A stretch of DNA of 64,000 bases. It comes from Thermoplasmatales archaeon. Lineage in GTDB: Archaea; Thermoplasmatota; Thermoplasmata; Thermoplasmatales; Thermoplasmataceae. Location of the stretch: the NCBI GenBank assembly GCA_026127925.1, contig JAJSLM010000002.1, positions 1 to 64,000 on the forward strand, read 5' to 3'. The number at the start of each line of letters is the position of its first letter. Positions within the stretch are counted from its first letter, which is position 1. The position numbers and the translations under genes were made by a program. Of this stretch, positions 16,436-26,092 are shown one piece after another. The notes beneath the pieces are model-generated. The model searched no databases. It was not told the origin of the DNA and saw nothing but the letters and a program-made list of their open reading frames with translations.

Positions 16436-16610
16436 GATCCTTATTGTCAGTTGAAACAAGAAGAGTGATATTTAAAGTAACATATACTATTTAAGACTCA
16501 CGTCAAGAGTTGCTAAGGTTAATATCTACCTTTGATCTTGCGGTGTACAGGCATCGACTGTAATATGTTCGTTCAAAATAGACGGAAGGACTTATGGTTT
16601 TGCTGTAATT

Positions 16611-16642
16611 GGTAGGAGAAGGTTATCTTCGCTGGCACTACC
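16611..16642 (+). promoter_or_regulatory. Candidate L1-binding autoregulatory hairpin in the L1-P0-P1 leader
   Basis: The leader folds as GGUAG (16611-16615), GA (16616-16617), GAAG (16618-16621), a 5-base loop, CUUC (16627-16630), GCUGGCA (16631-16637), CUACC (16638-16642). Two stems flank an asymmetric loop with GA on the short side and a G-rich purine stretch on the long side. That is the architecture of the L1 site in 23S rRNA and in methanococcal L1 mRNA as I recall them. The ribosome binding site GGGTGA follows at once (16643-16648), so bound L1 would block initiation at the TTG at 16654. Confidence 0.6.
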
Positions 16643-16653
16643 GGGTGATTGAA

Positions 16654-17310
16654 TTGGCTGAAAAAAACGCTGTATCTGAAACAATCGAGGAAATTAAGAA
16701 AAATTCCAAGGAACGCAAGTTCAAGGAAAGTATTGAGCTTGCAGTTAACATGAAGGAAGTAGATTTGAGCGATCCTAAGAACAGAATAAACGAGGAAATA
16801 ATTTTGCCCAAGGGACGGGGAAAGGATCTTAAGGTTGCGGTCATTGGAACAGCCGAAATGAAAACTAAGGCTGCCAAGGTTGCAGATTTTGTTTTTGGCC
16901 CGGAGGACCTTGGCAAATTCGCCGAGGACAAAAAGGCGTTCAAGAAACTCGCTGGAGATGTTGATTTCTTTGTAGCCGAAGCTACACTCATGGCAGGGAT
17001 AGGTAAATCTCTTGGTCAGGTTCTTGGTCCAAGGGGAAAGATGCCAAAGCCCCTTCCCCCAGGTCAGGATCCTACACCTTTGATAAACAACCTCAAAAAG
17101 ACTGTGAGGGCAAGAAGCAGGGACAGGAGGACTTTCCATGTACCTGTGGGCACAAGAGACATGAACACCAGTGATCTTGTGGACAACATAAATTCAGTGG
17201 TAAAGAGGATTGTGGGCAGGATGGAGAAGGGAAGGGGAAATATCGAATCCATATACCTCAAGACGACGATGGGTAAAGCAGTGAAACTTGATCTGGAGGC
17301 GATACAATGA
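16654..17310 (+). CDS. rpl1: Large ribosomal subunit protein L1 (uL1)
   Basis: The 218-residue protein forms the mobile L1 stalk and is a classical autogenous repressor. It contains GRGKDLKVAVIGT, a second-domain core, and GPRGKMPKPLPPGQDP with the following RARSRDRRTFHVPVGT, ending in GNIESIYLKTTMGKAVKLDL. I place the start at a TTG at 16654 because GGGTGA sits 5 bases upstream and the product then has the family length. Starts further upstream (TTG 16609, GTG 16645) would lie inside the leader hairpin and add residues not seen in L1. The stop overlaps the P0 start (ATGA). Confidence 0.93.
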   Translation: MAEKNAVSETIEEIKKNSKERKFKESIELAVNMKEVDLSDPKNRINEEIILPKGRGKDLKVAVIGTAEMKTKAAKVADFVFGPEDLGKFAEDKKAFKKLAGDVDFFVAEATLMAGIGKSLGQVLGPRGKMPKPLPPGQDPTPLINNLKKTVRARSRDRRTFHVPVGTRDMNTSDLVDNINSVVKRIVGRMEKGRGNIESIYLKTTMGKAVKLDLEAIQ

Positions 17311-18257
17311 CGCACCCAGCACCTTGGAAAATAGAGCTTGTAAAGGATCTTGAGAGCGATATCGAGAATAATCCTGTCGTGGTGGTTGTAGGCATTAAGG
17401 GAATAGCGAATGCACAGCTTCAGAATATTAGAAAAACCCTGAAGGGGAAAGCAAAGTTGAGGGTCGTGAGAAAGAGGCTCCTCCTGAAGGCTCTGGAAAA
17501 CAGCAAGAAGGAAAACATTCATGACCTGGAAAAACTCTCTGAAGGACAGGTTGCTGTCGTCACAACATCTTCTCAACCCGCTATTATAGGGAAAATACTT
17601 GAGGGAACAAGGCAAAAGGCTTTTGCAAAGGGGGGAGAAATTGCGGAAGATGACATAATAATACCTGAAATGGCAACAGATTTCCCGCCGGGCCCCATGA
17701 TGAGTGAATTCCAGAAAGTTGGCTTGCAGACGGGAATCGATAAGGGGAAGATAGCCATTAAAAAGGAGGCTCTCTTCGTAAAGGCTGGAGAACCGATACC
17801 TAAGAGCAAAGCGAAGATACTCGTTAAACTGGGAATACCAACGGTTGATTCCGGGCTTGACATCAGGGGTGCATACAGTGAAGGTCTTATTTTCGATAAG
17901 GAAACTATGTCGATCAATGTGGACTATGCCACTTCAAACATAGCGATTGCTTTCTCACAGGCGAAGAATGTCGCTCTCGAGGCAATGTTCCTTGTTCCAG
18001 AGATACTGCCCTCCCTGATCGTGAAGGCAAGGTTCTCTGCCGAGCAGCTTGCCGTGATGACGGGAACAGTTGACGAAGGCAATGTAGACTTATTTATACT
18101 TAAAGCTATTAGGGAAGCAAACAAACTGAATGCTACTGTTTCTGGCGAGGAAACGGAAAAACAGGAAGAGAAGAAAGAGGAAAAGAAAGAACAAAAGGCA
18201 AAGGCTGAAGACACCTCGGACAGTGTTTCAGAGGGTTTAAGCTCGCTATTTGGATGA
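17307..18257 (+). CDS. rplP0: Large ribosomal subunit protein P0 (uL10)
   Basis: This 316-residue protein anchors the P1 dimers of the ribosomal stalk. It has the start [13 protein letters not shown], the RNA-binding [15 protein letters not shown] region, the archaeal insertion domain with [16 protein letters not shown] and [17 protein letters not shown], helical P1-binding segments, and a Lys/Glu-rich hinge ending EGLSSLFG. The terminal GLSSLFG is shared with P1 and is the translational GTPase-binding tail. It is cotranscribed with L1 and P1. Confidence 0.96.
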
Positions 18258-24367: not shown

Positions 24368-25153
24368 TTGGAAGAGATTGCGGATACATTGGAGTACATA
24401 GGATATAATTCAATAGCCAGTGGCAGCAAGGGAAACTGCTCAATAATCTGGGACGATCAGGATCTTCTGATATTTGATTTTGGCATAAGCCTTAAATCTT
24501 TTAAAAAGCGTATATCTGAACTTAAAATTGACGCTTTGAATAAGTCACTTTTCATAAGCCATGAGCACTCTGATCATACAAAGGGTGTTGGGTCCCTTGT
24601 CAAACACGGACATGTCGACGTTTATTCTACAGGAGAGACTCTCGAAGCGATACGACTCAGCAACGGATACCCAATTTACGGGAAAATTGCGCTTGGGAAT
24701 TTTAAAATTACACCTGTTAAAATATCGCATGACGCTGTTAATCCCGTAGCATTTGTTGTATCTTATGGGCACTACAAAATTTCCATAGTTTCAGACCTAG
24801 GTATTGTATCCCAGGAATTGATCTCAGAAACAAAAGGGTCGAAAATTGTATCTTTTGAATCGAATCATGACGTGGAAATGCTGAAATCTGGAAGGTATCC
24901 GGATCAGTTGAAGAAGAGAATTCTAAGCGATCATGGTCATCTCTCAAATGAACAGGCTGCCGAGGCACTTTCAAAAATAGTTGATCGAGATACAGAGATC
25001 GTTTTAGCGCACCTGAGCCAGGAAAACAACAGACCTGATATTGCGATGGACTGCACAAGATCTTATTTGAAAAATAGAAACATAGAGTTCGGAAGCCTGG
25101 AATTTGCAAGTCAAGAAAGCGGTTCTACTCTTCACCTGATTGATATGCTATAA
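24368..25153 (+). CDS. MBL-fold metallo-hydrolase (YycJ/WalJ-like)
   Basis: The 261-residue protein has the metallo-beta-lactamase fold of the YycJ type: NSIASGSKGNCSII with FDFGIS, the metal motif SHEHSDHTKG (HxHxDH), a later SDLG, and FESNHDVEML plus SDHGHLSNEQA near the end. YycJ-type enzymes are exonuclease or hydrolase proteins of unsettled substrate. The start is a TTG at 24368; another TTG lies seven codons in. It follows the SIS gene by 21 bases. Confidence 0.82.
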   Translation: MEEIADTLEYIGYNSIASGSKGNCSIIWDDQDLLIFDFGISLKSFKKRISELKIDALNKSLFISHEHSDHTKGVGSLVKHGHVDVYSTGETLEAIRLSNGYPIYGKIALGNFKITPVKISHDAVNPVAFVVSYGHYKISIVSDLGIVSQELISETKGSKIVSFESNHDVEMLKSGRYPDQLKKRILSDHGHLSNEQAAEALSKIVDRDTEIVLAHLSQENNRPDIAMDCTRSYLKNRNIEFGSLEFASQESGSTLHLIDML

Positions 25154-25213
25154 CTTAAGCCGATTCCTGAGGCAACTGCTAATGGTAATATTTGATATTG
25201 TCATACGTAAAAT

Positions 25214-26092
25214 ATGAGTAGCAATATAGGTTTTGTCGGAACTGGAAAGATGGGTTCAAGGATCATATCAAGGATCCTGCAGAAATACGAAGTGACTGGA
25301 GCATACAACAGAACAAAGGAAAAATTGAATCAATTCCCATCATTGAGGCAATACCAGACGCCTGCACTTCTGGCAGCTGAAAACGATATAATATTCATAA
25401 TGCTAACAGATGATAATGCTTGTGGTGAAGTTGTATTCGGAGAAGATGGCATCCTCTCCACGATCAGGCCAAAGTCCATTATAGTAAATTTGAGCACTGT
25501 TTCCTATAAATTCGCTGTGTCATGCGCGTCAGCGCTTTCTGAACATGCAGTACATTACTTGGATTGCCCCGTGCTCGGTAGTATAATCCCTGCGGAACAG
25601 GGAAAGCTGACCGCACTGGTTTCCGGAGAGGAAGATATATTCAATATCGTAAAGGGTGTAATCGAGACCTTCTCAAGCCATGTTCTGTTTCTCGGTCCAG
25701 CCGGAAATGCGATAAAAGGGAAACTGGCAAACAATCTCCTGATGGCAACAAATTTTGTCGTTGCATCTGAGGCGATACTGTTTCTTGAAAAAAGCGGCTT
25801 TAAGAGAGAAATTGCTCTGGACATACTCCTAAACGGAGGGGGTAGTTCAAAAGCGCTTGAATCGAAGGTGGACGACATAAAATCTGAGGACTTCATTCCA
25901 CAGTTCACGCTCAACCATATCGTCAAAGACATAAGGTATGGAGAGGAGCTCTGCAACTCCGCCAATTTTCCAATGCTGAGCATGGCGTCGGCTCTCCAGA
26001 TATACAACATTGCAGAGTCTATGGGGCTAGGAAACCTGGATTATTCTGCAGTGTTTAAGTCCTTCCGGCTCTCCCTGGGCGTGAAAAAATAG
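25214..26092 (+). CDS. 3-hydroxyisobutyrate/6-phosphogluconate dehydrogenase family oxidoreductase (beta-HAD)
   Basis: This 292-residue NAD(P)-dependent enzyme has an N-terminal Rossmann domain (IGFVGTGKMGSRII) and an Arg after the second strand (AYNRTKE), which favours NADP(H). The substrate segment DCPVLGSIIPAEQGKLTALVSG and the catalytic-helix region GPAGNAIKGKLANN carry the conserved Lys. The closing helices contain FTLNHIVKDI, matching the F-x-L-x-x-x-x-KD motif. It may act on 3-hydroxyisobutyrate, tartronate semialdehyde or succinic semialdehyde; the substrate cannot be chosen from sequence. Confidence 0.88.
   Translation: MSSNIGFVGTGKMGSRIISRILQKYEVTGAYNRTKEKLNQFPSLRQYQTPALLAAENDIIFIMLTDDNACGEVVFGEDGILSTIRPKSIIVNLSTVSYKFAVSCASALSEHAVHYLDCPVLGSIIPAEQGKLTALVSGEEDIFNIVKGVIETFSSHVLFLGPAGNAIKGKLANNLLMATNFVVASEAILFLEKSGFKREIALDILLNGGGSSKALESKVDDIKSEDFIPQFTLNHIVKDIRYGEELCNSANFPMLSMASALQIYNIAESMGLGNLDYSAVFKSFRLSLGVKK

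Follow-up and report, generated by a model that had tools for sequence, protein, structure and literature searches.

Background

In methanococci (M. vannielii) the mRNA site for ribosomal protein L1 consists of two stems around an asymmetric loop and lies inside the L1 coding region. For haloarchaea, Shimmin and Dennis reportedly proposed in 1989 that the L1-L10-L12 genes have an L1 site in their untranslated leader. Autogenous control by L1 exists in both bacteria and archaea, the mRNA sites mimicking the 23S rRNA, and L1 sites located in leaders are standard in bacteria (PMC10931766). Only a handful of archaeal cis-regulatory RNAs are known, and the list given in PMC7247131 does not include an L1 leader. 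L1 sites in mRNA are therefore already known as a class; their occurrence in Thermoplasmatota is new as far as open-access papers show, since no report of an L1 leader element for this phylum was found among them.

The L1 locus and the element preceding L1

The window, that is, the whole stretch of 64,000 nucleotides analyzed here, belongs to a Thermoplasmata genome of 1.73 Mb in 17 contigs, and carries the genes for L11, L1, L10 (P0) and P1/L12 in this order, with a spacer of 218 nt between L11 and L1 (Table 1). The nearest named relative is MAG YS3.bin24 (L002), whose L1 protein is 98% identical. The TTG at 16654 aligns with the L1 starts of relatives, which makes an in-frame GTG at 16645 a less likely start codon. 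When aligned with E. coli L1, the protein was found to retain KF.ES and a C-terminal TTMG, which we take to be the conserved RNA-contact regions of L1. The L10 start overlaps the L1 stop as ATGA, an arrangement that probably couples translation of the two genes. The 23S rRNA gene of this genome is incomplete and reaches the end of a contig (G000:C14, about 25132-25215).

Table 1. Genes and parts of the leader element at the L1 locus (positions in the window)
Feature	Positions	Strand	Evidence or remark
L11 gene	15965-16435	+	ORF list; separated from the L1 start by 218 nt
Whole L1-site-like element	16609-16644	+	Model R1 match, 22.6 bits; model R2, 33.2 bits (R2 includes the window)
Stem 1, 5' strand GGUAG	16611-16615	+	Sequence; covariation of this stem among relatives
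Asymmetric internal loop, short strand GA	16616-16617	+	Alignment of relatives
Stem 2, 5' strand GAAG	16618-16621	+	First pair G-C invariant (85/85); pairs 2-4 covary
Apical loop GUUAU	16622-16626	+	Length and sequence vary in relatives; G16622 and U16626 may pair
Stem 2, 3' strand CUUC	16627-16630	+	Covariation alignment
Asymmetric internal loop, long strand GCUGGCA	16631-16637	+	Alignment of relatives
Stem 1, 3' strand CUACC	16638-16642	+	Shine-Dalgarno directly after; sequence and covariation
Shine-Dalgarno GGGTGAT	16643-16649	+	Complementary to own 16S 3' end
L1 (uL1) gene	16654-17310	+	TTG start; Pfam PF00687, E=3.7e-51; archaeal L1 structures matched
L10 (P0) gene	17307-18257	+	ORF list; identity from sequence and gene order
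P1/L12 gene	18254-18589	+	ORF list; likely start ATG 18272 behind GGAGG

The initial annotation had read the leader as GGUAG-GA-GAAG, a loop, and CUUC-GCUGGCA-CUACC, followed by GGGTGA and the TTG start, and both the letters and the coordinates of this reading proved correct. In sequence and alignment alike, the element consists of two helices around an asymmetric loop whose short strand carries GA, and it lies where L1 sites are expected, at or close to the point where translation of the L1 (or L11-L1) operon begins. Stem 1 could be lengthened to 16609-16644 through U.G pairs involving U16609 and U16610. The Shine-Dalgarno (SD) letters GGTGAT complement ATCACC in the 16S 3' end of the same genome (ATCACCTCCT), and RNAduplex predicts an SD/16S duplex of 7 pairs at -8.3 kcal/mol.

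Conservation and covariation in related leaders

Using L1 as query, 80 related loci were collected, with relatives sampled within the order. In 63 of the 80 the same element immediately precedes the L1 SD, for example as CUGUAG-GA-GAGC..GCUC-GCAUGCA-CUACAG-AGGUGA, so that the absence of the stem from related leaders, named in the initial annotation as an outcome that would speak against an L1 site, was not what we found. Covariation of the stem across Thermoplasmata L1 leaders, which the same annotation had put forward as a check, was present in two alignments. The first (A1, 57 relatives, window excluded) contained 74 changes on both sides of a pair; none of 500 shuffles reached its covariation score, and structures slid along the alignment scored far lower. 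The second (A2, 85 sequences), to which distant families and the window had been added, contained 151 both-sides base-pair changes, as compared with 35 in shuffles, and again none of 500 shuffles reached the score; 93% of its cells were paired, against 29-46% for slid structures, and both-sides changes occurred at 8 of the 11 pairs.

The letters that do not vary in A2 are confined to the surroundings of the loop and to one stem 1 pair. The A of the short strand is invariant in all 85 sequences, preceded by G in most and by A or T in a few, and the long strand, of 5-7 nt in most relatives, begins with G in more than 90% of them and ends with A in all. In families f34 and f42, which are probably Poseidoniales, the stem 1 core GUAG/CUAC is replaced by GCGG/CCGC or GUGG/CCAC and the loop is retained. 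Cores of GCGG/CCGC, GUGG/CCAC or GCAG/CUGC with the same loop letters were observed in loci L115, L135, L146, L153-L155, L157, L159 and L162-L171, probably Poseidoniales. A further variant was seen in deep families (L116, L142, L144, L145 and L151), in which the long strand bears an additional hairpin that creates a three-way junction.

At closer range, the window and the same-genus L002 are identical in the element, the SD and the start codon, whereas much of the L11-L1 spacer has diverged. A second block of this spacer, at 16503-16547, is nearly identical in the two genomes (CAAGAGTTGCTAAGGTTAATATCTACCTTTGATCTTGCGGTGTAC); it has the stems CAAGA/UCUUG and AAGGU/ACCUU, is present in single copy and was found only in the genus of the window.

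Specificity of the element in the genome and in the phylum

A descriptor of the element matched once in the 64-kb window, where 0.05 matches are expected per strand, and not at all on the minus strand; a looser descriptor of the loop occurred in 0.39% of simulated 100-nt leaders. The covariance model R1, which was built without the window, ranked the element first in the whole 1.73-Mb genome, with the runner-up at 14.8 bits, and the same scan revealed no second element before L11 in this genome. At the gathering score, no family of Rfam 15 matched the element, its counterparts in relatives or the stretch of E. coli leader.

Among 390 genomes of the phylum, R1 gave 99 matches in 97 genomes. L1 coordinates were listed for 83 of these matches, and in 81 of the 83 the first Pfam-aligned base of L1 follows at a distance of 48-63 nt; of the other 16, tblastn placed 15 before L1 and one is at a contig end. 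The two off-target matches are ascribed to chance, one (L098) overlapping an MttB-like reading frame just before an in-frame TAG and the other (L099) having no L1, L10 or L11 nearby. A broader model, R2, which includes the window, matched 157 of the 390 genomes, once each, under strict filters, and owing to these filters the true number of genomes is likely higher. A search of a plasmid collection for other archaeal phyla returned bacterial matches only.

These comparative data also decide whether the hairpin could be a functionless product of chance or of constraint imposed by an overlapping feature. Folded with Vienna on its own, the window sequence is unexceptional, as such a product would be, with an MFE z-score of +0.73, and RNAfold favours another inner pairing. 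Since free energy does not single out the structure, the fold is based on comparison and energy was left out as support; the covariation, the top rank in the genome and the single match per genome across the phylum refute the chance reading, to which we assign a negligible probability.

The element was detected in Thermoplasmatales, in Methanomassiliicoccales and in lineages that are probably marine Poseidoniales. Given this spread over much of the phylum, the common ancestor of these lineages probably already had L1 feedback ahead of L1-L10-P1. The element also supplies a defined model for Rfam and an RNA that is directly testable.

A model for feedback by L1 and its alternatives

We consider it very probable that the element is an L1 site mimicking 23S rRNA, through which L1 blocks its own ribosome binding site and, by way of the overlapping genes, also the expression of L10 and P1. 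According to this model, free L1 produced at a rate beyond what rRNA can take up would bind the two-stem structure in the mRNA and bar the 30S subunit from the ribosome binding site of L1, repressing translation of L1; L10 and then P1 would be repressed along with it through their overlapping starts and stops, and newly made 23S rRNA would compete L1 away, allowing translation to resume. That L1 binds the element, and that it represses by doing so, is inferred. As the mode of repression we propose that bound L1 hides the SD sterically, since stem 1 stops right at the SD and L1 would thereby exclude the 30S subunit; repression of L10 and P1 would follow from coupling.

A different downstream route from the same L1 site, through a trapped, stalled 30S complex, through mRNA stability or through premature termination in the L11-L1 spacer, seems unlikely to us, although it is the most probable of the alternatives. 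The SD is largely unpaired in the structure of the window, so the element by itself does not hide it, and a 218-nt spacer with a second conserved block leaves room for transcriptional events. Against this, stem 1 reaches the SD in almost every relative, whatever the distance from L11, and in L004-L006 the element begins within a few nucleotides of the L11 stop, with no room for a separate leader. In those genomes control would act inside an L11-L1 operon; in other relatives a TATA-like box is found just upstream.

It is quite improbable that the hairpin is instead conserved as the target of another protein (L10, L11, L7Ae or an initiation factor) or for tuning of translation. The operon does encode L10 and P1 besides L1, and bacterial L10 complexes are known leader-binding repressors (PMC10931766), but the conserved loop nucleotides match L1 sites and not a kink-turn, and nearly all matches lie directly before L1, even where L1 is apart from L11. 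A site for L1 that acts on the adjoining ribosome binding site is thus the reading that we retain.

A proposed circularly permuted form in a sister clade

In six of the 80 loci, and in further genomes of genera g5 and g10, the canonical element is replaced by CCC-G(N4-5)A-CUG..CAG-GA-GGG (leaders L012, L013, L018, L020, L024, L030, L123, L183, L192 and L197; SD region CAGGAGGG). This form, absent from the window itself, has the same loop letters and the same strand polarity, but here the apical loop caps stem 1, and stem 2 lies on the outside. Both the GA and one of the two strands of stem 2 are provided by its SD, GGAGGG. RNAfold gives the permuted fold for all nine elements folded.

A loose descriptor of the permuted form had 43 other occurrences in 1.77 million strand-bases. 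All 16 of the g5 and g10 genomes sampled contain the exact pattern a single time, in 15 of them at L1; beyond these genera it had three matches in two genomes, and a reversed control pattern had none in 77 genomes. The core pairs are invariant, and accordingly no covariation was detected in the permuted core. A tree of L1 and L11 groups the permuted tips in a single clade (support 0.994) lying within the canonical ones, which suggests a single rewiring event.

From these sequence patterns, it is likely that the L1 site became circularly permuted in one clade of the family of the window (g5 and g10), where L1 would bind the SD as a part of the motif itself and pairing with upstream sequence may set the SD free. 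When longer 5' sequence was included, RNAfold predicted an alternative that frees the SD in L013, L020, L123, L183 and L197, the upstream partners being GGGT..ACCC or a segment complementary to the G....A-CUGC strand. The permuted leader could possibly work as a two-state switch, and the folds are suggestive of a GGG...CCC competitor hairpin in this clade. No report of a permuted L1 site was found in open-access papers. If the permuted form does bind L1, a regulatory contact between protein and RNA has outlasted a rearrangement of the order of the RNA backbone, and a ribosome binding site has been absorbed into the site of a repressor.

Lineages without the element

The remaining 11 of the 80 loci, which are Thermoplasma- and Ferroplasma-like (L016, L022, L025-L028, L031-L033, L037 and L039), have neither the canonical nor the permuted form. 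In those inspected, the L1 start is at or very near the L11 stop, and L1 may therefore depend on coupling to L11. No element was seen in the inspected leaders of families f5, f22, f33 and f45, in many of which L1 starts soon after a TATA-like box and without a clear SD. Leaders L124-L126, L130, L131, L134, L187, L191, L193, L199 and L200, where L1 likewise follows soon after a TATA-like box with neither a clear SD nor the element, look leaderless or short-leadered. In lineages lacking the canonical form, no element was found before L11.

Comparison with known L1 sites

The loop of the element follows a simple grammar, GA opposite G....A with fixed G-C pairs flanking, and the same grammar is found in the L1 site of the E. 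coli rplK leader, GGG-GA-GCCU..AGGC-GUUAUUA-CCC. E. coli and the window have in common the short-strand GA, a long strand of 7 nt running from G to A and the flanking G-C pairs, and in both the 3' strand of stem 1 is close to an SD; the E. coli site, however, precedes L11 (rplK), whereas that of the window precedes L1, with no copy found before L11. In the 23S rRNA of this genome the L1 stalk (H76-H78), GGAAG-GA-..-GAAACA-CUUCC, also conforms to the grammar, although its stem sequences are different and its apical part is much larger. A scan of 2.5 kb of this 23S rRNA with the grammar gave a single match, located at the L1 stalk; as 1.1 matches are expected by chance in 2.5 kb, the weight of this result, which is moderate, lies in the position of the match. 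Neither R1 nor R2 matched the E. coli leader or the 23S rRNA of this genome, because lineage-specific stem letters dominate both models. Mimicry of an L1 site, as claimed in the initial annotation, is thus backed by a loop grammar common to the E. coli rplK leader and the 23S stalk.

With respect to archaeal systems, the window and the methanococcal site are both in L1 mRNAs and both have two stems and an asymmetric loop, but the site of the window is placed before the SD; the methanococcal type of placement does not apply here, as the element ends at the SD, before TTG 16654. The haloarchaeal L1-L10-L12 site resembles it in its position in an untranslated leader, a likeness by description only. 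The contrast with methanococci drawn in the initial annotation is therefore fair, but sites located in leaders were already known elsewhere. In particular, the L1 sites of Actinobacteria, Cyanobacteria and Firmicutes lie directly before the L1 cistron, the same position as in the window (PMC10931766). The comparison with these bacterial sites is one of position; the Thermoplasmatota element has a lineage-wide consensus of its own.
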